A stretch of DNA of 64,000 bases from Agelas oroides (taxonomy: Eukaryota > Porifera > Demospongiae > Agelasida > Agelasidae), in NCBI GenBank assembly GCA_949130485.1, contig OX422200.1, positions 1,533,774-1,597,773 on the forward strand, written 5' to 3'. Positions within the stretch are counted from its first letter, which is position 1. Every line of letters starts with the position of its first letter. The position numbers were made by a program, and so were the translations under genes. The notes beneath the pieces are model-generated. The model saw only the letters and a program-made list of their open reading frames with translations. It had not been told where the DNA came from and made no database searches. Shown in pieces: positions 5,770 to 48,207 of this stretch.

Positions 5770-5910
5770 CCCCATTGTATACACCTTGAAATCAAGTGTA
5801 GGTAATATTGACATAGTGAGTGTAACCAGTTTTTATGAATGATTTGTGAATGTTGTAATTTTTGTAGTTATGTTTTTAGCAAATGTTGTTACCATGACTT
5901 TTGTACAATT

Positions 5911-7087: not shown

Positions 7088-7792
7088 TTAAATGAACACA
7101 ATGAGATACTCAGGGTAGGTCTGAGCATCAAAAAACACCACATGCATAACAGGGTTGGAAATCCTGTCTACAACAGAATCAAAGAGGATGGTTGGATCTT
7201 TTGGATCTTTGGGTGGTGGTACAATCATGCTTTTGTCACCCACTGCAACCTCTCCAACAAGTACTCGCGCAAAGTAAATATACTTCTGCCCATTTGCATC
7301 AGGTGGTGAGTAGGTTGGTTGGGCAGAGTATGAAGCATTATGTGCAAAGTAGACCCCACGACCAATTGCTGTCGCTGTAGAACAGAAATGCCAGTATTTA
7401 GATGTAAACAGTTGCTCATTTAATAAACACACTTGATATCTCACCATTCTTCCCGGCAAAATTTCTGTTGAAACCTTGCTGGTTGATCTTGGGACAAACA
7501 TTAGCTGGAGTGCCATGGAAGAGTCGCTGTTCATTCCGGTGCCCAGGTGGATTGTGTTTATCCATGTCTTTCTTTTTGACGATATACTGGGAGTATAGCA
7601 TTGGGTTTTGGATTCGTTGGATTTTGACTATTTTGGTATAACTAGTTCCTGGTGTCATTGATTTGTTAAATTCTTGCAGCACCTCATTGTACTCCTTGCT
7701 GCCTGGAGTAAGATCAACACAATGCAAAGCAACTTCCTTACCAGTCTGACGGTCAGTTGGCATTGGGTCCCAGTGAGATGGTTTTTCAATAC
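7088..7792 (-). CDS. Exons 10-11 of paralog 1: PARP/ART catalytic domain
   Basis: Exons 7445-7792 and 7088-7374 (TAA at 7090-7088). NAD-binding His2122 in LFHGT, Tyr2154 in GRGVYFA, and a hydrophobic third position (Met2222 in NPVMHVVFF) where PARP1 has the catalytic Glu. This H-Y-hydrophobic triad predicts mono-ADP-ribosylation, as in PARP14/15. The C-terminus ends in YPEYLIVF, typical of the subfamily. Confidence 0.9.
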
Positions 7793-8173
7793 CTGCAAAG
7801 GATAAGTATTCTGTAGCTTGCTACTGCATACTAGGTACAGGTATGTGAATATTATGCCTGTAAAATTTTTCAAAATCCAACTGCTCACATCAGTTGTGTG
7901 CTAGAATTGTTAGCACTTTTCACTTTTGACAAATATGCAGGTGTCTTCAGTAGCTACATTCAAAGTACTATTTGGTATGGGTATTCCTGCTCCATAGGAT
8001 CCAATTTTTCGATGCTTTCTAAGTCTGTACCACAATATTCGTGGCTCCATGCAGGATGAAACGACTTGCACAGGGTGGCTGGCAATCATTAGTTCTGTTC
8101 GCGTGTAAGTGACAACACCCTAAAATCAGGCGAGCCCCACACTAGCGGGACTGCATTGCAAGATGCATGTGTA

Positions 8174-8212
<39 letters not shown>

Positions 8213-11200
8213 ATGTCTGTCGGTTTGCTTGCGGCCATATCATAAATTTTAAATGCACATTTAAATATTTCCCGAAAATTGAACGTCCTCGTGCACTAAT
8301 AGTAGGTAGCCTCAGTAGGTGAAGGGCAATGCAGCGTCGGCAACCGGAGCAAAGACAGCTCAAGTTGAAGCACACACGGCAACTTACTTCTTGTTTGTCA
8401 TGGCAGCTATGGACCAACTGGCTCGCAGACCCTACAAATTATACACGCTGGCTTCAGGTAAGGGCCAGCACTCATAAACGCCAGAGATTCAGCTCATGAT
8501 TTCAGCGTGAAGCCTAGTCTATTCATGTGTAGCCATAGTAGCTGCCTAGTCTTGCAAGCCAGACCAAGAGGGTCTGGTGAACTGTGTATACAAGCCGTGT
8601 CCCACTGGAATGCAATTAGCAGGATGACGTAACCAGATTTCGCACTCTTGAATTACCTGTTGCAGAGAAAGCATGTTCCCTGAGAAGTATAGTCAAAGTG
8701 TTTTTACAACTCCTGCAGTAGCGGAAAAGATGTCCTAGCTCTTTTTTTTTGCCCTTCTCAAGACTGTTATTGTAACTCAAACAGTGATGTAATGCATCAA
8801 GTGACAAAATACTGCACCATGATTGGACTGCACTGTACAGTGTGGGGGGACACGGCTTGTATACGCAGTTCACCAAACCCTTGCCTTCTCTTGCGGAAGG
8901 GCTTGCGAGACTAGTAGCTGCCTTGGCTTGAGAAAGTGTCACTGCATGCAATTTGTGATACCTACCTTGGCGAGGACTCTGCTAGCTATAATTATCAAGT
9001 TTGGCTAATAACTGCAAACAGTAGACAGTGACAATCCTGCCATGACAAAATAGAAAATCAGCCGTGTGCTGCTTGCTCAGGCTCGCCCTACGATAATGAA
9101 TCATCTGACTAGTATTATGCCAGTATAATGCTGAGACATATAGGTGCCTATTATGCTGGCGTAATATTTGCATACCTACTGCATACCAGATGTGCTATTC
9201 TATATACATGATTTACCTTCCTGATATAGCCTTATAAGGTCAACACGAACAACTGGGAACCTATCCTCGCTGTTATGATCAATCTCCTCCATCTTCTTGA
9301 AATCAACTGTGTAATGCTCTGCTGTATCATGATGTGTGTATGATGGCTTCTTAGCGCTGTAAGCTAGTTCTATTTCATAGTTTTCTGCCATATCATACTC
9401 AGATTCTTGTGAGTCCATGCGCTTCCACTGTACAAGCTTTTGCATATGTTCAGCTTCACGCTGCCTGAAGATTCTCTTTGCAAGTTCAGAAAGTGTTGCA
9501 TTGATGTAGTCCTTCATTTCATGCACATCACCTCTGTCTCCCTTTAAACGAATGAAATTCTGAGCAAAGTTGATATCCAGTTCAACATGCATTTGTTTGC
9601 TTGTATCCTCCAACTTATCTATTTCAGACTGACTGAGTTGATCAACATTTGGATCGTCAACTGTATCTGTGATAAATTGAGCTTTAATAAAGCTCTGCAA
9701 CTTCTCTACAGCTCTCTTAACAGCCTTTTGAGTTTCTCCATATATCAGTAGCTCAACCTTCTCATACATCATCCATTTAAAACTCGGGGAGGCTGGATGA
9801 GAGACCATAAAGTTTCCATCATTTTCTGTTGAGGCAGGCCAAGTTGGCAGAATAGATCCAACAAAGTCCTTGGTGCGTTTTAAAAGCCCGGGATGAGAGA
9901 GTGACTCTGGGTCATTAAATACAGCAACAAATGTTTGGTAAATATCCTGTTGTAAAAGAACAACATGTACACATGTGATGTGTGTGACTTTAGAGGTTGC
10001 AAATTGGTCAATAGCTTTCTTCATTCCTTTTGCAGCTTCATCAGGTGAATAACCAATTGTGCCAGTTCCAATGGCTGGGAAAGCTATAGAGTTGCATTTG
10101 AGTTCCTCAGCTTTATGAAGACAAGCAGTGATTGTTTTTACAAATTTCTTGGAATCTTTGCTTTCAAACAAGATATGAAAAACATATCTACATTTTAGAG
10201 CTCCAGTAGCTGGTGTATGTACAACTTTCCCCTCTTCAAGCCTTACACCTTGGGAAGTGAGTGTGTTGCATGCTTTCTGTAGCTCTTCACCCCCTTTTCT
10301 GAGAAGAGCACCCGACACTCCTGGACCTTTAAGCTTTAGTTCTGAACTAGTAGGATTCACAACTGCATCACTGCTATCCTCTGTGATATCTCCATTTATC
10401 ACTTGGACTTGAATAGTACCAAGCTGATGTGCCTGTTGACTAGAAACACTTATGCTTTGCGTGGCAGCTGCATGCCTGGAACTACGCTTGCGTGATCTTC
10501 TTGGCACAGCAATCTTTTGTGATAAGCTTGACATAAGGGAGTAGCTAGTTTCAGGTGTCAACTTTTGTTTGGCAAATTCTTGCTGAAAAGCACGGTGTGT
10601 TTCTGTCAGGAAAGTCACAAGATACACTGCATTGAGTGTGCTATTTTTGTGTGTTGAAAGAAAGGTTGAAACTGCTTCGACCATTATTCTGGCCACAACA
10701 TCATTAGGATAATGTAGGTTGCCAGTCCCAATGGCAGGAAGTGCAATGGAAGTCACTCCCAGTTTAGTACACTCATTCAGGCACTTGTTCACCAATTCTC
10801 GTAGCTCCTGAAGCAACAGATATATAATAGTGGATAATTTTAAGTCTACCAAGTAATTTACCCGTACCTTCTCTGCTTGTTTTTCACGATGATGATATTT
10901 GGTAGCAACAGTATGAAGTACATATTGACATGGCAACCTGCCACCTCCAGTCACAGCAATTTCTCCAACTGAAATGGGAGCCTTCTTCGTGCACTCTGCC
11001 TGCAAGGCTGGACCTGCAGCTTTTGACAAGGCTTCAGCAACTCCGCCGTTTGACAAGTTCAGGTCAACATTTGTTGTGTTCACATACACATCAGCCTATA
11101 ACAAGAAGTATAACTGTTCATCAAAGCAATCAACCTACACGCTATACTCAAAAGTGTCAAGTGTCCATCTGACGTTGACAACATATACACTGAGCATGAA

Positions 11201-14200
11201 TACACGCACTTGTACAAGTGAGCTGATCACAAGTATTTCAGACCAGTTCAAAATTCACACATGGTGGTAACTTCAATCAAAATGGGATATTATAGATTCA
11301 GCCAGTTAGGTATATTTTCTTTGGTCTCGTTCCCAGGCCTACCCCGTTTTTTGTTCTTCGGTTTGTGTTCAGTAAAATACACAGAGGCGGAAGAGTGCGA
11401 AAAACGGGGAAGGCCTGGGAACACCTGTCACGTGAATGACGTCTGGTGGACGTGAGGTGGACGTAGGGGGGGCGGTGCCCAACTACAAATTCGTGTGCAA
11501 TATATCATAGAGCGAGTTTCTTATTGGTGAAGTCAAGTACTGTCGATCTCGTGAACGTCTGGGGTCCGGGCTGTTGTTGGAACGCTCGATGATGAAGTCT
11601 AGTACGTTATTTGAATGTGAACCCCTCCCCCCCTACGTCCACCTTGCGTCCACCAGACGTCATTCACGTGACAGGTGTTCCCAGGCCTTCCCCATTTTTC
11701 GCACTCTTCCGCCTCTGTGTATACTGAACGCAAACTGAAGAACAAAAAAAAGGGTTGGCCTGGGAACGAGGCTATATCTTCTTAACTAGCATGCAGTTGT
11801 ACACCCCCCACCCCACAGTGAAACTTATCTGTAGATCTGGAAATTTTGCGTAAACCATGAAAATAAAATATATTTGACAACAAATAATCATTACAGTCAG
11901 CACATTTCGTCATAGACAGTAGAGTAGAAGGATATGGATTGGAAATGCATGTAACTCACATGATCAATCTGCCATTAACTCCCATAGTGAACTTATCCGT
12001 GTTATGCCAGCATTGTCCCCCAAGCTCGGGATCTGAGTAAAGCATGTCCTCAGACAATCAGGGGTGGAAGTCGGGGACATGCCAGTCTCAAGCTACCTCC
12101 CGGCAAACACGGACAAGTATAAGTTGAGTCAGAGCACAGAGAGAGGTTGTAAGTGTTAGGTTTAGTGAATGAAAATGTTAAAGCTAATGTACATTACCTT
12201 GATTTCAGTTAGACTTCCTTGCCTCAGGATTATGCAGTCTTGGAGTGAGGCAACTTTCTTCTCTGTTTTTTTCTCAGCTGCAGATTTTACTTCAGAAATT
12301 GGTGTTCCAGCAGGAGGAGGATGGAAAATAGGATAACTAGACTTCTGAGGTAAACTCATGATGATGTTCTCTTGCGGTAGCCGTGTTTCTAATGCTTTGA
12401 CAAATGCCTGGGCATCACTCTGTTTGAAGACAACAAAGTTTATTTCTTGAATTTCTGATAAGGAGTTCTTTTCACAGAATGTAACTGCAGCATCGACAAG
12501 GGTGTGAGCACAATGATCTATGGGAAAGCCAAATATTCCAGAGCTAATAGCAGGAAAAGCAATTGAGCGATATTCACAAGCAGCTTGCAAGCTCTGAGTA
12601 AGTGCCTTTGATAGTAGATCTTCTTTGTCAAAATGCCCACCACTCCACCGCGGACCCACTGCATGGATCAAAGCTTTGCAAGGCAGTGTGCCTACTTTAG
12701 TAGTCAACCATACATCCCCATCATCAAGCCTTCCACATCTCCTCACATACTGTGAGGATTCTTGCTGAATTATTGGTCCACCTTTGGTTGCTATAGCTCC
12801 AGCAACACCACCAGAATGCTGAAGGTCACCATTAGCAGCATTCACTATTACATCAGCCTTGTCAAACTCAGTTATATCACCAATATACAACAAAATCTGT
12901 TTCATTTCTTGGGTACGTGCCGTACACACTTTCGTGAACTTGGTAGCACCTGGACTAGCAAGATCTGCAGCATCATCAGAAATTGAATCATCAATCACAC
13001 TCTTCTCAATGCAAACTTGTTCAGTTTTCTCAATACCAGCCAGTAGTGTCACTGCATGCTCATTTTTTTGAAAATATTTGCAACTGCCTGGGTGTGAAAT
13101 TGAAATGGATTCTCTGACAACAGACTTCATGGTATCATAAATCACTTGGCAAATTTCTGCAACTAATGTGGCATCACCTTTCACTAGGATGAGCATTCTG
13201 CCATCATCTTCCTCTAGCTCTGTGAGTTCAACACTATTTCTATTGCACTGGGCCACAATGTCACTCTGCCACCTTTTTTGCATTGGACCACAGAAAAGAC
13301 GCCATATACCTCTCTTAACTTCAACTTGACTGGTGACATTGCACTTATCCTGAACAAACTTTTTGATACTTTCAATAGTTTCACAAACATCTTTGTTGAA
13401 ACCAGCAACTGTTACTTTGTTATCTGAAGGGAAGATTTCGATATGTTGTTGTGTTTGCAGATCTTGACACAACTGCTGGTACTCTTCCTCAAATTCAGGA
13501 AGTTTTCGAGCAAAAGTCTCATTGAGGGGCTGAGATTTGGCAGAAGTTATTTGCTGCAAATCCCTGCTTATAGATTCTGCTAAACCAGTCTGGCTAGGGT
13601 CACAGAGAAAACGCAGTACTAACTGGGATGATGGTGATGATGGAGAAACTTGCTGGAAGTGAATAGCAACAGGGCACTTTTTGTTTCGGATGAAATCATT
13701 CAGTTGCTGCCTTCCATTGTCAGTGGAAAAGTAATGAATGGTCAAGGGATCCAATTGTACCATAACAGAGTCGTGAGCTAATTGCTCAGGAAGGCACTGT
13801 TTAAACTGTGCCACACTTCGAACTGAACCTTGCAGAAGAAGTGCATGATGTGCAGAATCATACTGTATGCTTACATCAGAATGGGAATTTGCAATTTGAA
13901 GTGCTTTCACTTGTGTAAAAAAATCATATTCTTTTATCTTAAGTTCCACTTTGTCACTTGTTTGGGCATAAGCTGAACAGATCTCATCTGCTCTTGTTTG
14001 AAGCATACTGATTGCAGTGGGATCTCCTGCAGCTTTAAGCAAAAGGCTCTCTTGACTAAGTATGGATGCAAGTGATGTGTCTTCTTCTACATATTGCTTC
14101 AGCTCATTTGTAGCTTCTGTGGGGAATGTGATCTCCACTGCTTTGTAATTTGAGTGAACATAAGAAGAAGCTAGTTGCTCTGCCTCTTGCTCCCAACCAG

Positions 14201-17200
14201 CGATAGTATGTGATGTATGAGTTATCAGAATAACATTATCCTTTTCATCAATAGTAACATCAACTTTCAAATTTTGAATGCACTGCTTCAAGCCTCTTGG
14301 GTCCTTCTGGAGGGACTTTGCTACAAGTGGATCTATGGAAATTGTCACTGTAGGGGGGAGATTAGCTTGTGGCACAGTTTTAAAATCTTCTCTTTCCACT
14401 AATACTTTCTCTCCAAATGTAGAATGGGCTCTGTGAATAACACTCTCAACCACTGTAAAAAAATATGTAGTGTGGCTAAAATTTAACCAACAACAATTGA
14501 ATACATGACTACATATTTTTATTTATTAGAGACAATTCATTACATAATCGAGAAGTTATAGTGGGTGTTTTTACATCCTCACTGCAACATTTCCGCATAA
14601 TATTATTTCCACATATACATGCTGTCATTTTTCACGTTTGAATCCATTGCAACGCATGATCTAATCTAACTCAAGAAATTCAATTCCTGGAATTTATGGG
14701 TGGATCTAACTTAACACATACCCACTAAAATTATTTAATTTGCATGCGTTGTATTTTAATAAATACGGTATGAAAAATTGCAATTCAATTCACTAGTGTG
14801 GGGCTCGCTCACACTTGTCCCAACTACCAGAAATACCACAAATTTTTATGGTCAATAACATAATTATTATTCTGTATTTGCAAAGTCCCTTACTTGTGCT
14901 GTGCGTGTTAGTATGAATTGCATGCATCATGCTATTGGATTTCTGAATTTGCAAAAATTTTTGTACAGCAAACTTTTTTGTGCTTTCACAAAATGTTATC
15001 CGATGAACATGGTACTGCAAAATTACCCACAGTTCACTCCTCTACAAAAGTGCCAGTGTTTCTTCAGACAGGTTGGCATAGGTTGGCATGGATTTGCATC
15101 ATATTCCGGAACCTTCCAAAGCAAGTGTGTCTTCATCTTCTCCCCCTTTGATACCATGCAGTACTTGCACAGTCATGACTTCTAGACATGACATATTGGG
15201 TACAACACTATATTTATAAGTATCACCATAGTACAAAGCTATACCGGAAAATATCACAAGTTTGTTGCCGTCTGTATTGTTACGAGTGTGCAGTGTGGTC
15301 TGTGGGCGGAATTTCATCAAAGACTAAACGTAGATAGTAGCTGTCCCAGGAATAGCAGTAACAGCAATACTGAAGCTCGGGCAACAAACGAGTGATATTT
15401 TTTCGGTATAGCTTGGTACTATGGTGATAGTGACGAACCTTTGATTTCATTGCACGTTCAGACGTGACGCACGTGACTTGTAGTGCCTGATACGGATTCT
15501 CGTGTGACTTTTATACACTGCATGCAACTGCAAGGCTTCCCCATTGACTCCCATACATTCACGTGAGTTAGATGTATGATAAATGCTAGTATTAGTTTGT
15601 GCATGTGTACAGCACAGATATGGCAGGAGTACAACGGGTGTAGGTGGGGACAAGTTATTAACTTTGTATTATCTTAATGGCCGACTTGCATGATGACGTC
15701 ACGTACGAGGGCTGGGGTAAAAGTTCGGCAGCTGGCCATAGAGAATGTATGGGGAATTCCAAACGGGTGATGAGAAGATCCATCAGTTTGCTGCGCGGAA
15801 AGACTGATCGTCTCCATGTGCTAATATTTGCTACCCAAAGAGTTGGTGTATTCATAAGCGAGTCCGATGGCTGTATTGCTGTACGGTGAGTGGCATTAAT
15901 TGTCTGGAAAGCCGCCGACAGTTCAGCTGATGATGTCTCCCATTGTACAATTTCTGGAAAACGGCTAAGACCTCTGTCTTAAAACTGTAAGCCACCTTTT
16001 TGTCTATATTGTGTCTGTTATGTGCAATGGGGCGGGTGGGAAGGCATGAATAAGCCAGATATACAGCTGGATTTAATAAGTTGCAGCTGCTGGGATGCTG
16101 TTGTACTTCATGTGGGTATGCAACTTTTTCTTGGAGAGAGTAACCAGAGAGTAGACTCTCTTCCCCTCCGTACACTTTCACAGGGCCAAAAATTGATGCT
16201 CTCCTTAGATGCCGACTAAGGCGACCATGAACTGTGCTGTGTGCAGATCCAAGAGACAATCCTCGAAGAGCTCTTCTGTCCAAGAAAGAGCACAGCTGAA
16301 CTTGCACAATCAGTGTTAAACCGTTGTTCTGTATGTACAATTTTAGTCTTATTATATCTCTAAAATATGGCATGGCAAAGTGTGGCTGAACCATGGCTAA
16401 ATCATGGGGGGTGCATGTATATGTGGGCGGGGCAGCGGGTTCTGCGCCTTCTACGGGATCTATTCAAGCAAGGTAAGTTGACGCTGACTCTAACTTGAGG
16501 TAACTGCAAGGGCAGTTGTAACGGTTATAATTGGGACTCTTGAGCGCCGTCCATAGCTTTGCATGCTAGCCGAAACGTTGCGCAACGTCTGAAGCGCCTA
16601 GAAACTATTCAGGTGATAGAACATTCTGCTGTGGTCAATGCATGCAAAAAGAGCGGGCAACAGCTACCATTGATCAAAAGTTACAAATATGTTTGTCTGG
16701 AGGAGTGTAAATTTCCCATACATTCTCAATAGAACGCCATCGGATTTTTACCCCAGCCATCGTATGTGACGTAATCATGCAAGTCGGCCATTGCTTACCA
16801 CTTAACTCATGTGCTTATTAACCAGAGTACTACTGTACACATATATTTCTCATACTATGATATACCGTAAAAGTATAAGTACCCATCAATTACAAGTACA
16901 CTATGAATATAAGTACCTATCAAAACTGTTCTGGCCAATTTCCTGAATAGTAGTACCCACACTGAACATAAGTACCCTATGAATATTAGTACCCATCAGC
17001 CCGTAACTGGTCTGTGGGCGGAATTTCATCGAAGACTAAATGTAGATAGTAGCTGTTCCAGGAGCAGCAGCAGCAATACTGGAGCTCAGGCAACAATGGC
17101 ACAATACTACTTCACGGAAGCTGGCTACAATTGGGATGCCAACGACGTTGTGCGACGAGCTGTGTGTAGTGGTTTGGGCGGTTGGTCATGTGAAGATTGA

Positions 17201-20200
17201 CAGCAGATGGCAGTAGGTCCGTTCGTAAGCACAGACTAGTCAAGCAGTCTACTCTAGCAGTAGTTTAGTGGGTACCGCACCATCGCTACGGCTGCATTTG
17301 CACTGCAGTACATTTAGCCTCGTGGTATGGTACTCCATGATTAATAAGTACCTATGTGATCAGCACCGCAAAAATGCGCAATTTTGAAATAAAAGTACCA
17401 GTACTTATGCTCCTGAGTTTATGATAACACTAGTCAATTGTTACGTACATGGATACACACAAGGTAATTGCTGTATTTAGCACCTCTAAATACCTCAGTG
17501 GAACAGTTGAAAGAAACTACCCCCACTACCAGGCCTTCCTACCTTCCAGTTTTTTGATAACTTACAGTATTGTCACTGCAAAAACAAAGTTGTTATGTTA
17601 TAGGTTACTACAATTACATGACTATCCTAACTATGAAAATTTTATGAATGCAGGGCTGGAAAAGGAGCTGATACTTAAGCTGATACTTGAGTAATTTTTA
17701 CTAGTCTCCCACAAAATGTTTTACAAGCACCAAATTCTTTGAATTAGCATAGGAAAGACAGTCATGCAATTGCAGTAACCAAATAATTTGCTAAAGTTAC
17801 AGTTTTTTTATAGTAACCAATCAAAAAACTGGACGGTGGGAGGCCTGGAGATGAGGCTATATAGAAAGAAGCATATGTATGTGGTCGGTATTCCCAAATA
17901 GCATACCTCTTGGATCTTGGAAGGTGACTATGGCTTCTCCATTGCCAAGTAGTTGAATGGATGTTACTGGTCCCCCTCCTGACCGTTTGTGACTTTCAAA
18001 GTACAACTGAATGTAGTCCTCAGTATAGTTCTTGGTAACTTCTCGGACTCGAATGCTATTAACAACTTTGCAGAGCTCAGCCTGAAGAATTACTCCCTTC
18101 AGAGGCTTGCTTCCAATCTTTGAGGTCATTTCCACCAGATCTGCATCCATGCAAATGGTCACATACAACATGCAAACATGAAAGTTTGATTTGCATCAAT
18201 CTTTATCCTGAAATGGTGTGTAGCTATACATGTGTGCTTGATTTTTCAGTGACACTAAATTTTGTATTTGTACTGTTTCAACATACAATTCCAAACTATG
18301 TTTTCACATGACAGACATACCTTCATATGAAAACTGAGCATTGAGGAAAGTAATCATGGCACTTTCACCTCTGACTTCCACCACAAACTGATCTTGAGAG
18401 TCCATTTTCAGAGTACCTTCAAGAAAAAGCTGGAGGTAGTCCTTGTCAATGTCTTGTGGAATCTGATGAATCAGCAGTTTATTACTGTCATACTGTTCAC
18501 CAGACTCCCCCGGATCAGGGATCGTGACATATTTCAGCTGTAGTTTTGATCCACAAATAGTATGTTCTGGTACAGAAAGAACTTGAGCCGCCACTGGGAG
18601 TATGATGACGAAAAACAAAGACTTGTGTAATATGAAAGTTTGTGCTTGTGCAGTGTCTAGTTATGCAACCTGACAGGTAAAATGTCAACCACACTTCCTG
18701 CATGCACTCCCTTAATTTACTTTAAATTTAAAAGCACACAATGACCATGATTATTATCATGCAGTCTTTGTAGGCATGGTATGCTGCGTACCTTTTGGGC
18801 TTTGAAACTTGACATGAGCAGTTCCTGGAACTACAATGAAGCACTTCTCTACTGCATCATCCTGGCTACCTAACCTTGGGGATTCAAAGTACATTTTTAA
18901 CAGTTTTGCATCAGCATTGGAAGGTAAGCCAGCGACTTCGAGTGTATCCAAGAGAACATTTGGTTGAGGTAGTTCAAGCGAAGTGGCAGCATTGTCTACT
19001 GACACCTTCACGTGTACAAGTTGTTCACTGATCTTGTGCTGCTGTTTCTGCAACTTTTCCAACTCTAAATGAAGACCAATATAAATTTATCATTAGCATG
19101 GTAGCATGTTTCTATCAGTATATTTTGTTGCTATGGCAATAACACTCTATTAGTAATGGCCTATACCAATCCAGAATGGATGTTCAGTGCATGAACTGAG
19201 CATCAACTACAAGAGCTTACTCTAGCCACCATCAATTCTCACCCAACTCCTGGTTTATTCTCTGATGATGAGCATCTATAGTCTAACTGTTGGTAAGTGA
19301 TTATACTCTTGTCGTGAAATTGGTAAAACTCATACAATCCCTTAAATCTGTACTGGTAGCAATTGTAATTGTCACAATTTAGACTTGTGTCTTGGAAGTT
19401 TTGTCAGTCTATAATGAAGGTGTGATATAATGTATACCTTCGGAAGTAAGCCCTGAGAGTTCTACTCTGGCATTTCCATTGCCCAAATTGACAGTAGAAA
19501 GAACTTCAACATTGTCCCCCTGTTTCTCAAAGTAGGCTTCAATTTCATCAGCAGTGGTTTGAGGAGGGAGGGAAGAAGTCTCAAGAGTGACTATCGATTC
19601 TGGTGAGAGGTGAAAGAAATGATGATCTGTACACTGTATGTTTCATGAGAGAAGTTTATACAAGGAATCCCGTAAGTAATTACCCTGTGCCCTGTATTCC
19701 TTCCATCTTTAACACTCTAATATTTATGTGACAGCATTTTTGCATGTGCCATTTTATGTTTAATAAGTTTTATAGCTACTGTGTTAGCTTCAATGCAGTC
19801 TGAGCACCAACAATCAATAACTTAGATGCAAGCAGCAGCTTAGCTTGCCCACAAACCATAGAGAGTAACTATCCCGGTTGCATGTTGTGATTGGTAATGC
19901 ACTGGTGAAGCTTAACAATACTGCTTGCAAACGATGCCCACTCAGGCTCACCCCTACAGTGTTTCTGATGCTTAAGGTTATGGGATACCGTAGAGAGTGC
20001 TAGTAAGATCAATAATGCATGACAAATTCATTTCACCACAAAGCATGTCCGTTACGTGCATATGTTGGCTTCCTACTTGACTGCTGTACAAATCTCCCGC
20101 CTAGTGAAGCCGCATGCGCACTTTGTCAACCGCAATAACGCAATTATCTCACTAGCTAGCCATGGCTGCCGGCTACGCGGAGCTGCCCGCGCTTGCACAA

Positions 20201-23200
20201 AAAATAGCCTTCTGTGCATGTGGGTGTTGGAATGAACTTTTACGGACTTATACGGCTTGTAAACTCCTCCCCCGAGGGATTGACGGAAGATTTTGGTGAT
20301 TGCTTAACCTGGAGTGAATATATGACTGGGTAAGTCCCTGGGTAGGGCTTTTAGCAGGCTATGATGCTCTATATTAGCGATTTGCTTCAATATTGTTTAA
20401 AAAGCTTCCGTCAGTCGCTAATAACCATTCTTAGGATGCCATTGGGCGCTTCTTACAGTTTGCTGGGCAACTTAACCGCGTGTTATCTTGTGCGCGAGTT
20501 GGTTAATATTTGAACCACCATAACTTGTGAACTGTTTATGTGTAGCTGATGATTTTTGCTGCACAAAGGCACCTATGTGTGGTGCTTGTGTGGTCCAAGT
20601 TTCATGTGCTAAGACTTTAGTATGCCTGTTTTAGGAGCATATATGTATACATATATGAAGTCATATAATTCTAAGTATCCCGTAACCTTAAACATGCAGT
20701 GTATTAACTAATTCTCCAACATGAATATGTACCTGCAGAGCTTTCGAGTGGAAAAGAAACAGCTTTCTCATGTGAAAATAGCTGAACATCTTTAAGTTTC
20801 TCTTCTCCTGTATTGAGAAGGTCGTTGAGATAATGGCAAACCTCTGAAGTTTCAGGACGTTTTCCTTGGTCTTTGTGAAGACAGAAAATGATAACTTTTC
20901 TGAGAGGGTGAGGTGATTCAATTTTCTGAACAAGAGAGTCACGATCTCTTGGATGGGCTACTGTTGGAGCCTTCATGACTATCTGAGCAGCCACCACGCC
21001 AAATGAGAAAATATCAAGACTAGTATCATAAATGCTGGAAGCATTCCTTTGAGGTATTGGCGGCATGTAAGCATCTCTGTGACTCACTGTTCTCAGCGAC
21101 CTGGTAAGGTTGTCAGGATCAACTATACGAGATATGCCAAAATCGGATACCTTTGCAATTAGTTGGCTACCTTCGTGTTTAAGGAGTACATTGTCACTGC
21201 AAAGGTCTTGATGCACAATGTTGTTGGAGTGAAGGTACTGCAAACCACAAGCTACATCACAGCTAAGACTGATTTGCAGCTGAAGGGGAAGGAGCGTTGA
21301 AGGTTCACTCACTGGCTGGCCAAGAAACTTAGTCAGGTTCTCGTCCATAAGCTCCATCACCAAGACTGGTAGGTTAGAGGTAGGCTCTATCACCGTGCTC
21401 ATGTGTCTGACAATGTTGCGATGGTTGTGGCTCTCGAGAAGCCTGCACTCCTTGTTGAACCTTTCTAAATCTTTGCCTTGAGTGGCACCAGCAGCCGGAA
21501 ACGGTGATGTCAGTTGTGTTGCAAGATGATTAAGAACTTTGACAGCACAAGATTTTCCACAAAATGTGCCTTTGAAAACAGAACCAAATGCGCCACCACC
21601 CAGGCACTGTGTTTTGTATACCACTAAATCACCCACAGATATACAATCTTCAGGTCTCTGATGAGGTACACCACTATCTGCATTAGAAAAATGAAAAATA
21701 CATTTTTTACCTGCATGTTTTAGTCTAAACCATGCCTCAAGATGCTCACAGAATCTAGTTCAGTGCTGAAGATTTACACAATCTAGAATGCTATTATTTA
21801 GCTAAAATACTTCATTGGAAGGCCTTTTCAAAACAAGCTTGAGGGTGTGAGTTAATCTATGGCAAGGCGCTGCTTTACACTCACTAGGCCAGTGTGTAAT
21901 TTGCTTTTTTTCTGGCCCACTATTCTCTTATGTTCAAGGAAAATCCATTACGCATTCACCAGTACCCATTATACTCCTTAAGTGTCATGCTAGATCAAAC
22001 TTTTCTGCAAAAATTTAAACGGTAGATTTTCCTATATAGTCCTCTATGGAAGAATTTTGTAGCCTCATTCCCAGGCCTCTCCTGGTTTTTGCTCTTCTCT
22101 TCGGTTTGTGTTCATTTAATACACAAAGGTGGAAGAGCAGCGAAAAACCCATTAAACGGGGGAGGCCTGAGAACACTTAATAATGTGAATGACATCTAGC
22201 CTCGTACCCAGGGTCTTTCTCATAGAGGAAAGAGCCTGGGTACGAGGCTAAATGACATCAGGTGGTTACAAGGTGGACGTAGGGGGGAAGGGGTCCACAT
22301 TGCAATAACCTACTAGACTTCATCATTAAGCGCTCCATCACTGGACAGGACCCCAGACGTTCATGAGGTTGAGAGTACTTGGCTTGACCAGAAAGAAACT
22401 TGCTTTCAGGCTTGTGCACGAATTTGTCGTTGGGTACCACCCCCCCTACGTCCACCTCACATCCATGTGGTGTGATAAGTGTTCCCAGGCCCACATATTT
22501 TGCCATTCTTCCACTTCTGTGTATATACTGAACACAAATCGAAGAACAGAAGACAGGGGAGGCCTGGGAACAAGGCTAAGAGTTTTGTTGGTCAGAGGAT
22601 GCATATTCTCACTACTACAGCAGTAGATGACTGAAAAAGGAAAGGTTACAGGCCTATTTCATGCATGGGACCACCACTACTAACCCTACCACTGGATATA
22701 TACCGTATTTCTTCGATTGGACACCGTGGCTACTATTTATTTTGGTGTTTGTTTTGTGCGGCTACTATTCGAGGACGGCGTTTATTTCTTTGGAAAGCCC
22801 ACAGATTATGCCAGATATCAAAGACAGCTTGATAAGGTACGTACGGTGATGAATGCTAGATGCTGTCAGTAGTGCACACAGCCTCTCAGTCCTGCTGTCA
22901 GCCGTGGAAACGACTCATACAACACGAATAGCCCTAGCGCTAGCATGGTGACCGTTGTCAGAAAGTATTTACAATTCGAGGGCGGCGTCTATTCGAAGAA
23001 ATAGGGTACATATGAAACATGTGAGGCCACATATTAAGTGGGGAATTCCCTTGTGGGGGGTGAGGGTGGTGTAGCACCACTTTTCCACACTTGTTGGTTA
23101 CATTCACATGCTAGGCACACCATGACACTAACCAACACTGCATTTGGATTGGATGCCCATTGTATCTTCGGGATGTGGGAATTATTGGGGCGAGTCTGAG

Positions 23201-26200
23201 CGAGCCCACATTAATGTGTTGAACGCAAGCGGTGTCTGTGTGTATATATGCATGTATGTATGTATGGAGTCGTTGATATGGCACCATCGCAGGCCCGGAG
23301 AAGCTAGAATAAAGTGGTAGGGGCGAACATTGAAAGCGTTTAAGCATGCTAAGTCTAGGGGGGTCTGGGGGCATGCCACCTCACTTCTCAGGCCATTCTG
23401 GGCCCAAAACTAGAGCATATTTATTTGTGATTACTATAGAAACTTAAAACATTGTACACGGATACAGCAGTTGTATTACGCAGGTGTGACAGTAAGCCAC
23501 ATCGTTCGCCTTGTCGTAGTGGCCACTGCTTAAAAACGAGGGTTGAAAAGACGAGTTAGTCTCAGAAAATGTCAACTCCCAAAATGTCAACTCCCATAAT
23601 GTCAACTTTCTAATTTTTAAAGGATTTCATCAGTAGCATAATTATATAGGTACATGTATTGCTATTACTAATACTTATTTGTAGCTAAAGATGCCCAATA
23701 GCATCAAGGTATTCGCTTATTGAAACTTGTCCTGCTGACGTTCTGTCCATACGACCGACGCCTTGTCAAAAAAACACGCTTTGGAAACAATGGTTGGTGT
23801 GGGGAACTGGGGAGACCTGGCAATGGATCTGCAAATCGCGAGCAGCTGGCCATGATAATTCGCTCTCCTTTCAGGCTACACACGTTTGCACTTCGGAGCA
23901 CCGAGGTGTGAACGTGTGCAGCCTTGCGTAAATATTCGAGCAAGGGCAGGGCTAAATTGACCAACTACATATGTATGTATGTTGGCGTGAAGCCCTTCAT
24001 ATTTAAAAAAAAAGTGGTAGGGCCAAAGCCCTACCGGCCCTACCGCTTGCACCGGCCCAGTCATCGTGTTCTCGAAGTGACCCACCCCACAAACAATGGA
24101 GGAGAAAGGGAAACATAGAATCGAACGTGACAGAGCACGCCGCGCTGCTGAAACAGCAGAGCAAAAAGAACACAGACTGAGCAAGTCCAGGACAAAAGAT
24201 AGAGCAAGGCATGCTTCTCATGTAGCTGCTGAGTGGTCTCGCATAGCCACACCCCGTACGATGTGCGTACATACAGAGCCGCACCCGTTATCGCTATTTG
24301 TCGGTTTGTCTGTTATCCTGTGACTGTTAGCTGTACTCACTAAAAGCACATGTAGCTATGTCCTTTCTGTTTATGTTTCGCTTGCATATACCTACTCAAC
24401 CTTCTCCCTTCTCAGCAGTCAGAATAGGGAAGCAGGACTCATTCGTAGCAACCCAAACTGATCCGGGGGACCACTTTCGGCTGCCAAAAGTGGTCCCCCG
24501 GACCAATTTTGGTTGCCAAATTTGGTCCTGCTAGGACCAGTTTTGGCAAGAGGGGACCATTTTTGGCGACCAAAAGTGCATGGTCTGGGGGGACCATTTT
24601 TGGCAGCCAAAATCGGTCCGGGGGACCACTTTTGGGTAGGACCGATTTTTGTGTGACTTGATAGCTTGGGGCATCGATTGGGTCAAGGTATCAGCCTCGT
24701 TCCCGGGGCTTCTGTTTCTTTCGTCGGCTCCCAGGTATTGGAGGTAGGGCATACCACTGATAGGTGCATTATTTCAGGTGTTTGTGATCATCCGATTAGT
24801 GAAGAGGTCACATACGTGGCCTAGTCAGCTTCTCTAAGCCCACACCAGCCAGCAAGCAAACTCAAGATGAGCGAGTGTTTGTGTCTTTAGTCTAGATTCG
24901 GACTGTGACAATATTGGCGAGGTGAGCGGCTTGGTGGGGGGAGGGAGCATGTCCTAACGGAACAAGCCCTCATACCTGGGGCACAATCACGCGTACCATC
25001 TCCCTACATATCCCTTACAAATACCCCATATTTCCCTGTTGTGCACAGTGTGTGACAGGGAGGTATGGGTATCTGTGGAATTCACAAAGAATTTCCAAAG
25101 ACATTTTTAACACAATGTTATGTGAAATACACGAGTCTAAAACTAAGGGAAAGGCTTTGGCCCTGTGAGGAAATATGCTGTTTATGTATGGCAGCTTTGA
25201 CTCAAAGTGTGTGATAAGTGCACCCCTCTAGCTACAGATAGGTATGTATCTTCCATATGGGATATCCACCAGCCCTCATAAATACAATGGTCTAGCTAGT
25301 TGGTACATGCACATACACTACACATGGCATTAACAATATGGCTACTGTGATTGGCAGCATTTCGTTGGTAGCAATTTAGGTGTTTGTGAACTTTCGATGT
25401 TCTTTCCAGCTGATTTGGAATCATTTGCTGTTCCACATAGCAGCACAATCCCATGGCCCAATCCACACCATGATATCGGAATGCTTGAGGAGTGATTGAT
25501 TTAAGCTAATGTAGTGCTGCTGTTGGTGTGCAACTGACAGTAACTGGACAATAGGTCACATTATTCATTATCATTGAACATAATTTCATCAGATCAACTG
25601 TCAACCAAAATGAAAGTACTATAGACACAACCACAGCCACAACCTACATACATGTAGTTGATGTATAGCTTTCAAGTTACCATGCAGAATACCATGCAGC
25701 TATGGGGCAACCAGTGAAATTGATACCCTGACTATATGTACTTATACTAAGTGACCCAGCATATACTGCTGATTATACTCATCTCATCCTTACTTGCTAT
25801 GAATGAGAGTTCAAATTCTGAGCATGCATGCATGCATGACCGGTGGAATTTTGATGGAATTCAATGGACTAAGTGTATACATGATTTTCTTGTTTGCTGT
25901 TAGTGACCAAATGTCCAAAGTGACCTAGAATACAGGCCAAATCCTGACCAATTAGTGTAAAGCAAGGTACTGCTTCAAAGTAACGTACGGAAATTGTAGT
26001 TAATTATATAAGTACATGCCACATACCACTATAAATTTGTTCACATGCCCAACCCTAACCAGTGTTGCCAGATCATGAACAACAAAGTTCACAGATTTAG
26101 AACTGAACCAACATTTTATGAACCTTTTGTGAACTTTTATCCATGTTCTGGTACCAAATTTGATATGCTTTTGACTTAGTCTCGTGCCCAGACCCTCCCG

Positions 26201-26898
26201 AAAAGCGGAAAGAGGGTCTGGTGTTCTGAACAACTTTTCTTGTCACATGGGGCGGGGTCGAATGGCATAAAGAATGTAATTATTGCATTCCCCATGCACT
26301 GCATGCATACTAGATCTCGTACTCGATTGTACGTCATTGCATATAATTATGTGTTCTGCAATCTGATTCGAGCTCTCAGATCAGGAAGCTGTGACAAGAA
26401 AAGTCACTCAGAACATCAGACCCTCTCTCTCGCGCGTACGGGGAGGGTCTGGGCACGAGACTACTTTTGACTCTGCCACTGATGCAATAAATTTTGGTCT
26501 CTGTAACATACTATCTGAACAAAAAATTAAATACTTGCATGAACAGTGGATCTAGCAACAGTGGATCTGGCAACAGTGGATCTGGCAACAGTGGATCTGG
26601 CAACAGTGACCCTAACTCCTACCCTATTACACAACCCTAGCCGCATAATTGTAACACCTACGGTGTTGTAACAGCCGGCCGGGCTGGCTGGTGACGTGTT
26701 TGTTATGCATACTTAGCCTTCCCAGTATCAAAATGTTAAGGCTGTTGCCGTATCAGTAAATAAGTTCCAACCTTCGCGAGTTTCACTTTCAGAGCCTGGA
26801 CTCCTGATGGGTTGTTTGGTAGTACCCCTTCCCCGACCCCGACCCCGACCCCGGCCCCTGCCGGCCTTTGATCCTGGTCCTGGGCTCCGAGAAGACAT
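7088..26898 (-). CDS. Kinase-RRM-KH-macro(x3)-WWE-ADP-ribosyltransferase fusion, paralog 1 (PARP14-like)
   Basis: Eleven exons on the minus strand: 26772-26898, 20733-21677, 19438-19599, 18792-19064, 18321-18593, 17907-18140, 12198-14452, 10868-11095, 9217-10807, 7445-7792, 7088-7374. The sum is 6723 nt, giving 2240 aa with every phase consistent. Order: RG-rich 1-42; protein kinase about 57-320; RRM-like units about 358-690; KH-like region about 700-1150; macro 1 about 1190-1365; macro 2 about 1424-1590; macro 3 about 1627-1797; KH/WWE to about 2029; ART 2030-2240. By family, PARP14-type proteins are mono-ADP-ribosyltransferases that bind nucleic acid and ADP-ribose and often act in stress or antiviral responses. 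The N-terminal kinase is not part of the vertebrate proteins I know. Joining exon 1 to the kinase rests on phase and on conservation in paralog 2. Role in immunity is inference. Confidence 0.85.
8170..8224. repeat. (TGTC)n microsatellite
   Basis: About thirteen TGTC units with a few substitutions, inside intron 9 of paralog 1. Confidence 0.85.
8547..8913. mobile_element. Fold-back element, 367 bp, exact 9-bp target duplication
   Basis: The left end, TAGTCTTGCAAGCCAGACC, matches the complement of the right end (GGGCTTGCGAGACTA). Inner arms with ACACGGCTTGTATAC are also inverted. Flanks are GTAGCTGCC at 8538-8546 and 8914-8922. Non-coding; in intron 9 of paralog 1. Confidence 0.85.
9217..10807 (-). 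CDS. Exon 9 of paralog 1: macro 2 end, macro 3, KH and WWE
   Basis: Contains the macro 2 C-terminal half ([15 protein letters not shown]), a serine/arginine linker, macro 3 ([18 protein letters not shown] ... [13 protein letters not shown] ... [14 protein letters not shown]), a KH-like unit (VELLIYGETQKAVKRAVEKL) and a WWE-like segment ([15 protein letters not shown] ... [13 protein letters not shown]). Macro 3 has VVNPTS in place of VNAAN, suggesting binding rather than hydrolysis. The exon length, 1591 nt, is identical in paralog 2. Confidence 0.8.
10868..11095 (-). CDS. Exon 8 of paralog 1: first half of macro domain 2
   Basis: Reads [23 protein letters not shown]; the pocket asparagine is kept but NAAN has become NTTN. 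Followed by a 60-nt intron (10808-10867) that has GT-AG ends, is a multiple of three and has no stop, so a simple ORF scan runs through it. The 67-nt intron in paralog 2 confirms it is an intron. Confidence 0.8.
11322..11774. mobile_element. Fold-back element, 453 bp, 9-bp target duplication
   Basis: Ends TGGTCTCGTTCCCAGGCC and GGCCTGGGAACGAGGCTA. Long inverted arms run in past the ACGTGAATGACGTC blocks. Flanks are TATTTTCTT (11313-11321) and TATCTTCTT (11775-11783), 8 of 9. Sits in intron 7 of paralog 1. Confidence 0.8.
12198..14452 (-). CDS. Exon 7 of paralog 1: KH-like region and macro domain 1
   Basis: A 2255-nt exon. The first 500 or so residues are repeated alpha/beta units with KH-like spacing and limited motif conservation. 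Macro 1 follows with [26 protein letters not shown] (residues 1219-1225) and [17 protein letters not shown] plus GGVAGAI is the ADP-ribose pocket signature typical of binding-competent, possibly hydrolytic macro domains. Confidence 0.8.
15296..17097. repeat. Direct repeats bracketing the 1.1-kb element
   Basis: About 90 bp starting GTCTGTGGGCGGAATTTCAT occurs at 15296-15385 and again at 17008-17097 in the same orientation with scattered substitutions. Between the second copy and 17420 lies a stretch rich in AAGTACCCAT/AAGTACCTAT motifs. The pair may be ends of an older composite element. Confidence 0.6.
15676..16792. mobile_element. 1.1-kb inverted-repeat element (different family)
   Basis: Left arm AATGGCCGACTTGCATGATG... 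and the right-arm complement agree over about 85 bp with several mismatches. I see no convincing target duplication. The interior has a 180-codon minus frame (15852-16394) without recognisable motifs, so it is probably non-autonomous. In the 3.4-kb intron 6 of paralog 1. Confidence 0.65.
17907..19599 (-). CDS. Exons 3-6 of paralog 1: four RRM-like units
   Basis: Exons 19438-19599, 18792-19064, 18321-18593 and 17907-18140 are all phase 1 to 1, as expected for module duplication. Each carries an RRM-like core with a beta1 segment ([34 protein letters not shown]), an xxLQLYFE-type helix and a GxAxVTFxxPxG strand. The next exon begins with the end of the preceding unit ([12 protein letters not shown]...LQL). 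This resembles the N-terminal RRM array of PARP14/DTX3L-type proteins. The classic aromatic RNP residues are not evident, so RNA binding may be altered. Confidence 0.7.
20733..21677 (-). CDS. Exon 2 of paralog 1: protein kinase domain
   Basis: Glycine loop GGGAFGSV (residues 69-76), AVK lysine 89, KEC glutamate 119, catalytic loop HQDLCSDN (Asp200, Asn205) and DFG at 221-223 are all present. Two motifs are atypical: HQD instead of HRD with Cys in place of the usual Lys/Ala, and MPPI where APE is expected. FSFGVV and KRP of the C-lobe are recognisable. The overall look is TKL/RIPK-like. The metal- and ATP-binding residues are intact, so it is probably active rather than a pseudokinase. The whole kinase lies in one exon. 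Confidence 0.85.
22060..22578. mobile_element. Fold-back element, 519 bp, hosting a nested mini-element
   Basis: Ends TAGCCTCATTCCCAGGCCTC and GAGGCCTGGGAACAAGGCTA; flanks AGAATTTTG (22051-22059) and AGAGTTTTG (22579-22587), 8 of 9. Interior is related to the 11322-11774 element (CACAGAGG/TGGAAGAG and GTCCACCT blocks). Lies in intron 1 of paralog 1. Confidence 0.8.
22197..22250. mobile_element. 54-bp hairpin mini-element with exact 9-bp target duplication
   Basis: TAGCCTCGTACCCAGGGTCT at the left and the near-perfect complement at the right, with only a short loop. AATGACATC flanks both sides (22188-22196 and 22251-22259). It is inserted inside the 519-bp element, so transposition of the mini-form is recent relative to its host. 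Confidence 0.85.
22701..23008. mobile_element. Inverted-repeat MITE, TACCGTATTTCTTCGA ends
   Basis: Left TACCGTATTTCTTCGATTGG and right ATTCGAAGAAATAGGGTA are inverted copies with GGCGGCGTCTATTCG inner motifs. Non-coding, 308 bp, in intron 1 of paralog 1. Confidence 0.6.
24096..24265 (+). pseudogene. Possible transposon ORF fragment (Arg/Ala/Glu-rich)
   Basis: The frame begins MEEKGKHRIERDRARRAAET and continues with EQKEHRLSKSRTKDRARHAS. This R..R.A.E...R repeat style recalls basic N-terminal segments of Helitron-type transposon proteins, but I cannot confirm it. A loosely similar basic segment occurs near 33080-33199. No continuation or catalytic motif is visible. Confidence 0.25.
24461..24655. 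repeat. Cluster of short inverted repeats (GGACCAnTTTTGGC motifs)
   Basis: GGGGACCACTTTCGGCTGCC, its complement, and variants such as TTTTGGCGACCAAAA alternate six or more times in about 190 bp, giving several overlapping hairpins. Cause unknown; in intron 1 of paralog 1. Confidence 0.6.
26177..26463. mobile_element. Fold-back element, 287 bp, exact 9-bp target duplication
   Basis: TAGTCTCGTGCCCAGACCCT left and AGGGTCTGGGCACGAGACTA right; CTTTTGACT flanks both sides (26168-26176, 26464-26472). Inner TTCTGA segments are also inverted. Confidence 0.9.
26540..26610. repeat. 17-bp tandem repeat, 4 copies
   Basis: AACAGTGGATCTGGC repeats four times with a final divergent copy, in intron 1 of paralog 1. 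Confidence 0.75.
26772..26898 (-). CDS. Exon 1 of paralog 1: RG-rich N-terminus
   Basis: ATG at 26898-26896 begins MSSRSPGPGSKAGRGRGRG; the exon ends in phase 1 at GAAG|GTTGG. The kinase exon starts in the matching phase 2 kb or more away, and paralog 2 has the same exon ([20 protein letters not shown]) with the same end phase. RG/RGG stretches commonly bind RNA and are arginine-methylated. The exon-1-to-kinase intron is about 5.1 kb and contains several fold-back elements. Confidence 0.7.
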
Positions 26899-26956
26899 CA
26901 CAATCGCGATAGACCCCCTACATGTAATGCAGGTGCAGGTGAAACGTACGTCAACG

Positions 26957-30559: not shown

Positions 30560-31904
30560 GGTTCTCGCTAGAAATCTATTTCCAAATGGTGCCTAGTACA
30601 ATGGGCAGGTATGAAACACCCACAGCTATTTTAAGTGGGAAGCCAGGCTAGTAACTGCTATGGGCAGGGTTTAGGCTAAATGGTCCTCTTACCACAATTT
30701 ACCACATCCAAATGGTGCTGCAATTAACCAAATGGTGCAAAAGGCCTAGCGAGAACCTGCTTGGTAAAAATGGTGCCTAGTACAATGGGCAGGTATGAAA
30801 GCCCTCTCTACACACCAAAGTGGGAAGCCAGGATAGTAACTGCTATGGGCAGGGTTTAGGCTAAATGATCCTCTTATCCAAATGGTGCTGCAATTAACCA
30901 AATGGTGCAAAACCATCTGCTAAAGGCCTAGTGAGAACCCTGCTAAGCATCAGTACAGTGGGTGCTTATAATCGTGGGGTGCTTACATTCATGGGGTGCT
31001 AATAAGTGTATGCAATATGAACCCATCTTAAGGTGCAGTTGTAGGGGAATGTACTAGTTGAGATATATATTATGCCTAGAGCTTCTCATATGTTTGTAGC
31101 TTTTCTAGAACCCAAGATATAGTCGGCACTCAATTGATCATTACTGACAACCCTGCCCACCAAAGTAAAGCACTTAGAACTAACGAATCCCTGAGGGGTT
31201 TTTGCTAATTCTTATCAAAAGGCTGTACTGGAATGTTTGTTTTATCCCGTGTCAATAGCTTGCTTGTAATCGGAGATAGATACTGGCAAAATTTACCCAC
31301 TACGTTCAAAAGCTGACTTCTGTTTGTGTAGTAACACAATCCACCTGGGTTCCAGAATTTTTGTGGGTGTCGAATTCTGATGCAGCCTCTCTCAGTGCTG
31401 CTCCTGAGCCCAAGTGATATTCATGTTAAACTTATTAGCTCCGCTCTCCCATTTTTGATGAGATCCTTTGTTGAGAAAAAGGACAGGGGGGGGGGGTGGG
31501 GGGGAATTCCTGAACGGGATACTACTGGCTATGTGCTTTGCTCCAGACATGCCAGACTCTGGAAAGGTGGCACCGAATTCTGATGCAGCCTCTCCCAGTG
31601 CTACTCCTGAGCCCGAGCAGCTGCCAGAAGAGGGAGAGAGAGGAGAGACACCAGAGGGGCAAGGTAGGAATCACAATAACGTGATCCATAAATTAGTTTT
31701 TATAAAAGGTATTGCCTGGAGCTGGATTGAAGGTCAAATTCAACTTGTGTAGATAATGGTAGATTCATGATGGTGTTTTATCATGGCCTGTATCAATGCT
31801 TATGCACCCTTTACTGTGAACAACACCTAATTTACAACATACTTCCATGAACCTACCACCTTCCTTCCTTGACCACAACTGGAGTGGTGCAGTATATATG
31901 GAAC

Positions 31905-32214
31905 TAATTTCATGTCCCGCCCGCACGCGCCTCCCAGTGAGAAACGGTTTGGTGAACAGAGTCAAATTCCTTGGGCTTATTCCCAAAAACTGATAAGGAC
32001 CAATGAGATTGCGAGATCGGTAAATATTACTTAGCACTTCCCTTACAACAGTAAATTTGTTCATCTCCATTCAAGTATCCGTACCTTTATTGAGCGGGCT
32101 TGCCGCAAACTGCTAGGTTATATTGTCGCAAAAGTGTGCGCTAGCCCAAGAAATTCAACTTGGTTCACCAGACTGTTTCTCCTTGTGAGAGGGTGGGGTC
32201 TGGGGACGAGACTA
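31905..32214. mobile_element. Fold-back element, duplicate of 5049-5313, fuller length
   Basis: 310 bp between ATATGGAAC and ATATAGAAC. Retains the inner GGTGAACAGAGTCAAATTCC segment that pairs with GAATTCAACTTGGTTCACC near the right end; this segment is lost from the first copy. Confidence 0.75.
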
Positions 32215-32819
32215 ATATAGAACATTCAAAGCTCTAGCATGGGAGCCCATGATAAACAGTTAATTGAAATATTGTTGTGATCTGGTCTGTTGACATTTAC
32301 AGGTGATCTCAGTCCTTCACCAGTCCCTACTGCTTCCCTCAAGTCCAGTGGAGAGAGAGCCACACCCTCTCCCCACCCCCCACCAGTAGAACAACAACAG
32401 GTATTAAATGCAGCAGCTGAAACCCCAGCAAGTCAGGTGGAGGATGGAAATACACAACAGTCGTCAGGAGAGGGAAAAGAGTCACCGCCCTTAGAGAACA
32501 GAGGTGAAGTACAGCTCGGTAACACCCAACAGGAGAGTACTAAAGGGATAGTGCAACAGCCCAATGGTGATGCTGCTCCGCCCTCAGTGAATGACCTGCA
32601 AGAGCAGGCCCCCCACTTGGGGGACAGTGGACAAAATCAAAATTCCCATCAAAATCACCAAGTTGGTGAGACTGGATAACCCCATTGTATACACCTTGAA
32701 ATCATTTGTAGGTAATATTGACATCTTAGTGGGTTTTTATGAATGATTTGTGAATGTTGTAATGCTTTTTTTGTAGTTATGTTTTTAGCAAATTTTGTTA
32801 CCATGAATTTTGTATAATT

Positions 32820-48143: not shown

Positions 48144-48207
48144 CGCCGTCGCCGATTAGGACACAGTCACAGAGCCGTACCGTCCGCTCGAAAATACCTC
48201 TCGGCTG

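Follow-up and report, generated by a model that had tools for sequence, protein, structure and literature searches.

Predicted union of a protein kinase with a PARP14-type chain in two tandem genes of the sponge Agelas oroides

Based on a detailed analysis of a 64,000-nucleotide stretch of the sponge Agelas oroides genome (assembly GCA_949130485.1, contig OX422200.1, forward-strand positions 1,533,774 to 1,597,773; hereafter the window), we propose that two tandem genes, A and B, each encode one polypeptide in which a protein kinase precedes a PARP14-type chain of RRM-like, KH-like, macro, WWE and ADP-ribosyltransferase (ART) domains. The exon chain is complete and in frame in both copies, which have diverged under constraint. 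Plain coordinates below are window positions; other loci are given by our contig labels, C18 being the contig that holds the window.

Exon structure and domain order of gene A

Gene A occupies the minus strand from 26898 to 7088. Rebuilt exon by exon from the splice contexts, it consists of 11 exons that form one open frame of 2240 amino acids, with all 10 introns of the GT-AG type. The phase is 1 after e1, the kinase exon, r1-r4, m23 and a1, and 0 after e7 and m2. This reproduces the coordinates, strand, exon number, matching phases and protein length reported in a preliminary description of the window, and Pfam finds the domains listed there. Their order is an RG-rich start, kinase, four RRM-like stretches, a KH-like region, three macro domains, WWE and ART.

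The first exon, e1 (26772-26898), carries the ATG, an RG-rich N terminus of 42 amino acids and a phase-1 donor, and is homologous to 48038-48143 in gene B (blastn blocks 26791-26845 and 26836-26899). The kinase exon (20733-21677, amino acids 43-357, phase 1 in and 1 out) matches Pfam PK_Tyr_Ser-Thr (E-value 2.3e-33) and is joined to r1 (19438-19599), the first of the RRM-like exons. Scanned exon by exon, r1 and r3 (18321-18593; RRM_PARP14_2, 0.0033) give weak matches below the Pfam cut-off, in r1 to both RRM_PARP14_3 (0.0049) and RRM_1 (0.018). RRM_PARP14_3 exceeds the cut-off in the other two of the four exons, r2 (18792-19064; 1.2e-5) and r4 (17907-18140; 6.1e-12), the same two in A and B.

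Downstream, e7 (12198-14452) holds the KH-like region, with a KH_PARP14_8 match at amino acids 993-1039, and macro 1, for which PARP14 chains are the top PDB matches. The 5' part of macro 2 lies in m2 (10868-11095; Pfam Macro), followed by m23 (9217-10807) with Macro stretches for the remainder of macro 2 and macro 3, a KH-like stretch and WWE (1.4e-5). The ART domain is divided between a1 (7445-7792; PARP, 5.6e-22), which contains the catalytic H, and a2 (7088-7374), to which frame and PDB alignment assign the catalytic Y, an M at the third position and the stop codon. In the spliced protein, Pfam reports Macro (1.5e-79, three stretches), PK_Tyr_Ser-Thr (1.8e-31), RRM_PARP14_3 (5.8e-31, three stretches), PARP (5.6e-22), KH_PARP14_8 (1.6e-8, two stretches) and, preceding ART, WWE (1.4e-5; 25.8 bits, the cut-off being 21.1). 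Of the array of eight KH domains that marks PARP14-type proteins, Pfam picks up a part: KH_PARP14_8 accounts for the two stretches in A and KH_PARP14_2 reaches 27.2 bits in B (cut-off 27), other KH matches falling below the cut-off.

A complete tandem paralogue, gene B

The same window and strand contain a second complete gene, missed in the preliminary description. Gene B runs from 48143 to 34602 and encodes 2272 amino acids with no internal stop, in 11 exons whose order and phases are those of gene A, again with GT-AG at 10/10 introns. It begins with e1 (48038-48143), homologous to e1 of gene A, and continues with the kinase exon (45058-45990; PK_Tyr_Ser-Thr, 5.1e-35). The RRM-like exons, assigned by Pfam exon by exon, span 41203-44650 (r1 44489-44650, r2 42589-42864, r3 41530-41802, r4 41203-41436). 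They are followed by e7 (38114-40431) with the KH-like region and macro 1 (Macro, 4.1e-29; KH_PARP14_2, 3.5e-6), and by m2 (37114-37341) and m23 (35456-37046), which together carry macro 2, macro 3 and WWE (35456-37341; m23 alone shows two Macro stretches and WWE at 2.9e-7). The ART domain and the stop codon are in a1 (34962-35372) and a2 (34602-34888), i.e. 34602-35372.

In a plus-strand blastn comparison (E up to 1e-5), the match blocks between A and B are collinear and track the exons. Two introns of 60-73 nt fall within blocks, and the longer introns are of unequal length and have no block of their own. The sole blocks outside the genes belong to a repeat past the 3' ends (5001-5910 and 31857-32819), about 0.9 kb long and about 95% identical, a closer match than the gene blocks. 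At the protein level the identity is 78.2% with a dN/dS of 0.41 (2221 aligned codons), and for the kinase exon 87.8% with the same dN/dS of 0.41 (311 codons). Since a second complete copy has the same 11 exons and phases, the exon chain is not a product of chance. An assembly artefact or chance frame is thus ruled out by conservation of the whole chain in a diverged copy, as are alleles of one gene by the tandem arrangement on one contig at 78% protein identity. The dS of the kinase exon (0.151) is below that of nine of the ten other exons (0.177 to 0.547), m2 being at 0.056, and this low value may reflect gene conversion.

Upstream of gene B, at 48144-48250, are three TGACGTCA sites, 72, 87 and 102 nt from the ATG, which we take to be CRE-like; upstream of gene A there are two TGACGT and no full TGACGTCA site within 400 nt.

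Kinase fold and PARP14-type identity

An AlphaFold2 model of the gene A kinase comprises both lobes (mean pLDDT 75, pTM 0.78), with a poorly predicted activation segment. All of the top 50 rows of a Foldseek search of the PDB with this model are protein kinases, ALK, BTK, MET, Csk and WNK among them. By sequence and fold together, ALK, Eph, BTK, MET, B-Raf and others rank first in the PDB. As to a RIPK/IRAK-like placement, IRAK4 stands lower in the sequence list, and the TK and TKL groups are not separated.

The best PDB matches of the ART domain are PARP14 (6we3, 5.1e-58) and PARP15 (5.6e-56), then PARP10 (6e-38) and PARP12 (4.5e-28). Mono-ARTs carry an H-Y-hydrophobic triad. Aligned to PARP14, the H and Y are kept, and the third position is M in gene A, versus L in PARP14, and I as read from the sequence of gene B; the triad reads as that of a mono-ART. 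Macro 1 matches best to PARP14 (3vfq, a two-macro chain, 4.8e-51, and 3q6z, 1.8e-32), followed by PARP9 (2.7e-29), and is predicted to be of the hydrolase type. With an ART, three macro domains, WWE before the ART and N-terminal RRMs, A and B classify by sequence as PARP14-type proteins (clade 3 macro-PARPs).

Origin of the kinase exon

A genome-wide protein search with the kinase returned at least 129 matches, a lower bound, as 126 of 497 candidates were scored. In a tree of 17 of these kinases, unrooted and midpoint-rooted for drawing only, those of A, B and a third copy cluster with 100/99 support. A further split, also at 100/99, separates a group of seven, made up of this trio and four kinases from C1, C7 and C13, from the remaining ten. 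The four (C7:7879077, C7:7978125, C1:29738301 and C13:723588) form the nearest family, with 49-51% identity, and their surroundings differ, with a RING-like frame upstream at C1 (below the Pfam cut-off) and a possible transmembrane segment at C13 (by eye).

At the DNA level, the third kinase exon (C18:1798280-1799212) is 94.9% identical to gene B across 1013 nt, a stretch that takes in flanking intron sequence, and at the protein level it is 86-87% identical to A. It is located inside a cluster of DTX3L-like genes, near an RRM_PARP14_3 exon. A genome search with RRM_PARP14_3 found at least four places, namely A, B, a further gene termed gene C and this exon; the number is a lower bound, for the search misses r2 of A and B, which the exon scan finds.

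Gene C, a PARP14-like gene on the same contig (C18:3.09-3.10 Mb), has RRM-like, macro and ART parts, and no kinase match at E 1e-3 on either strand of the 40 kb read around it. An in-frame ATG stands just before its first RRM-like stretch, and the exon with this ATG is probably the first. Because A and B share the kinase exon and a relative without kinase exists in gene C, we infer that a phase 1-1 kinase exon was captured by a PARP14-like gene before the tandem duplication. Upstream of gene C (C18:3081400-3084300) lie reverse-transcriptase-like frames with YADDIVLY, presumably the reverse-transcriptase motif.

Weighing of the alternatives

With moderate confidence, we explain these data by two tandem sponge genes, each encoding one kinase and PARP14-type polypeptide that arose through insertion of a 1-1 cassette and that would act as a dual enzyme. 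Several observations weigh against this. The joining of exons in A and B is predicted from genomic sequence. At e1 and m2, dN/dS reaches 0.95 (35 codons) and 0.97 (76 codons), respectively, and constraint is not evident there. An AlphaFold model of e7 was discarded at a pLDDT of 33, and the KH region rests on a few Pfam matches. The third kinase exon is placed in another gene cluster, with no match to e1 and no PARP-domain match nearby, and kinase exons of this type can therefore exist apart from PARP14. Finally, across 20 kinase loci (of which two, L016 and L020, overlap), HRD has become HQD, with loss of the arginine, and APE has become PPI, with loss of the glutamate, in three, i.e. A, B and the third copy, and these losses may mean low or altered kinase activity.

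Among the rival explanations, the one that survives best accepts one gene and treats the kinase exon as a cassette, an ordinary PARP14 without kinase being the main product and the kinase form a minor or induced isoform. As the exon is of phase 1-1 and its skipping leaves the frame open in both genes (1925 amino acids in A, 1961 in B), isoforms with and without the kinase are possible. However, the kinase exon has the same dN/dS as the whole protein, so the included form matters. We give the cassette reading a serious, if smaller, share of the probability; it is compatible with our preferred explanation and does not exclude it.

The second rival regards the kinase part as a pseudokinase scaffold, i.e. 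an adaptor or dimerisation module and not an enzyme. It draws on the altered motifs (HQD, PPI) that A, B and the third copy share, set against the 17 remaining loci, all of which keep PE and 16 of which keep HRD (the exception, L014 at C7:7978125, has HCD). The nearest family on C1, C7 and C13 differs from A and B in the same way, retaining PPE and, except in L014, HRD. Against a pseudokinase, the Gly-rich loop, the VAIK lysine, the helix C glutamate, the HxD aspartate, the asparagine and DFG show no variation across all 17 aligned kinases (positions assigned by hand), and we give this rival a slightly smaller share than the cassette reading. With the HRD arginine lost, the fused kinase is of the non-RD kind, a class that an abstract ties to innate immunity (PMC8463890).

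The third rival holds that two adjacent genes, a kinase gene of e1 and the kinase exon and a PARP14-like gene starting downstream, were duplicated as a block. In its favour are, besides the genomic basis of the gene models and the third kinase copy apart from any PARP part, the one-in-three chance of phase agreement at a single junction and the content of the kinase-r1 intron, which holds one A[AT]TAAA in A and, in both genes, ATGs whose frame reaches a phase-1 GT ahead of any stop codon (six in A and seven in B). None of these ATGs falls in the only block that the two introns have in common, 22 nt at the 3' splice site (other matches are at chance level, E 0.16 or worse), so that a conserved candidate first exon is lacking; the intron is 1133 nt long in A but 407 nt in B, where it also lacks A[AT]TAAA. 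The phase of the kinase donor is kept in both copies, even though A has 12 extra nt near the exon end, unlike the frame read beyond the donor, which is not conserved. On the other side of the intron, r1 opens directly at a splice acceptor that is conserved, and there is no ATG within its coding sequence. The kinase exon likewise starts at a splice acceptor, and in A and B alike has no in-frame ATG before the catalytic lysine; the kinase frame therefore needs an upstream exon for its start, and e1 is the only conserved upstream ATG exon found. Two separate genes are consequently unlikely, to the point that we give this arrangement very little weight, and the kinase and the PARP14-type chain very probably form one gene. 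The interpretation in the preliminary description is thus partly supported. Its single gene and single polypeptide are favoured by an exon chain that both copies keep, with its phases, under constraint; its suggestions that the protein may phosphorylate and ADP-ribosylate shared targets, or that the kinase may switch the ART, are conjectures, the former taken up in the mechanism proposed below.

Neighbouring loci and other fusions considered

The DTX3L-like cluster around the third kinase exon (C18:1763553-1819565), about 0.2 Mb from the window, is a tandem array in which B-box and macro lie in one open frame (775 amino acids at C18:1770997-1773321 and 758 at C18:1780129-1782402). Behind the 775-amino-acid frame come a death-like exon, whose Pfam Death match (0.0036) stays below the cut-off, and then DTX3L-type RING and DTC exons, and DTC matches occur at six places in the cluster. 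TRIM-macro-Death-Deltex proteins are a possible prediction from this arrangement. A junction of the kinase with the DTX3L-like genes at C18:1.80 Mb is not supported, the phase of their first exon differing from that of the kinase donor (by eye). The gene start there reads ATT, and three other copies have ATT in one case and ATG in two.

On C21 (923238-959512), kinase and PARP-domain matches alternate. The 4.6 kb between the first pair contain the C-terminal part of the kinase, PDZ-like and fn3-like frames (below the Pfam cut-off) and PARP. A kinase-PARP fusion is disfavoured here, as the tandem unit L022 has a similar PDZ region and then the next kinase, with no PARP between (by eye); the kinase-PDZ-like and fn3-like/PARP frames are more likely separate neighbouring genes.

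At C4:2028250-2032851, where the overlapping loci L016 and L020 lie, the same short stretch of a kinase relative repeats at about 86 bp and multiples thereof, with TGA codons inside. Four cathepsin-like exon pieces were also seen. One of them has the motif ASYAFSA and is closest in the PDB to silicatein alpha (1.4e-12), with a chain named CATHSILICATEIN and cathepsin L next, as would be expected of a siliceous sponge. In the window, disintegrin-like cysteine-rich frames (55134-56126; ADAM-type, by eye) stand beside low-complexity repeats.

Discussion

We propose that the kinase-PARP14 proteins of A. oroides originated and operate as follows. The cassette would have been one exon, of phase 1 at both ends, belonging to a kinase family with members across the genome. 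It would have entered a phase-1 intron of a PARP14-like gene prior to the tandem duplication, so that the predicted transcript places a complete kinase after a short RG-rich N terminus and ahead of the PARP14-type chain. Binding of RNA by the RRM/KH region, the putative trigger, would cluster the protein, upon which the kinase could, in the manner of PKR or RIPK, signal by trans-phosphorylation, if active, or serve as a scaffold. The ART domain would attach mono-ADP-ribose to the same targets, and macro 1 would take it off again, conceivably in stress or immune signalling. Through skipping of the cassette, forms with and without kinase may both be produced. Taken to its full extent, the scheme describes one polypeptide that senses RNA, adds two kinds of modification (phosphate and mono-ADP-ribose) and takes one of the two off again. 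It would have arisen when an exon for an immune-type non-RD kinase was inserted into PARP14, and would be present as two diverged, constrained copies; we put this forward tentatively.

A kinase-bearing PARP14-type protein would be a variation on the PARP14 architecture. That no PARP14-type family with an N-terminal kinase is known to have been described, as stated in the preliminary description, is consistent with the open-licence PMC papers searched, in which we found no such protein; database entries may exist. In the accessible text of a comparative study, Amphimedon has six PARP14-like proteins with macro domains, some with WWE, some with RRM and one with Radial spoke3, no kinase domain being mentioned there (the word "kinase" appears twice, neither time for a PARP domain); duplicates of PARP14-like genes frequently lie near each other, and sponges also show duplications (PMC4245714). 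The accessible sections of a 2026 perspective on PARP14 mention sponge paralogues and have "kinase" once, in the glossary (PMC13224862). The portions available of three further papers take the ancestral PARP14 as three macro domains and PARP, with no mention of a kinase (PMC10221186), relate kinase-domain passages to phage NadR and SLOG fusions (PMC9503650), and treat PARP14 RNA binding with no kinase mentioned beside it (PMC10450202). For human PARP14, excerpts report transferase and hydrolase in one chain (PMC10499325) and binding of RNA by KH-containing fragments (PMC10450202).

One protein may thus carry two different signalling enzymes, and a natural kinase-PARP14 fusion would suggest that the two modifications, phosphorylation and ADP-ribosylation, converge on a common pathway in this sponge. 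In the gene pair, an exon insertion seems to be visible together with its components, a 1-1 kinase cassette and a kinase-less relative on the same contig. It offers a testable protein in an early-branching animal group and a setting in which to ask which kinases cooperate with PARP14-type enzymes elsewhere.

The closest known system is PARP14 (ARTD8), an enzyme of antiviral defence that writes, reads and erases ADP-ribose. Genes A and B share its domain order, from RRM and KH-like parts through three macro domains to WWE and ART, and their ART and macro 1 are nearest to PARP14 in the PDB. However, genes A and B add a whole N-terminal kinase domain, possess four RRM-like exons compared to three RRMs, and have M (A) or I (B) in place of L at the third ART position. 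In linking RNA-sensing modules to kinase output, in one chain or by recruitment, the proposed arrangement would also resemble PKR and ZBP1-RIPK3. These systems use other RNA-binding domains and have no ART or macro domain, and the resemblance serves as a working analogy, not as a sign of homology.

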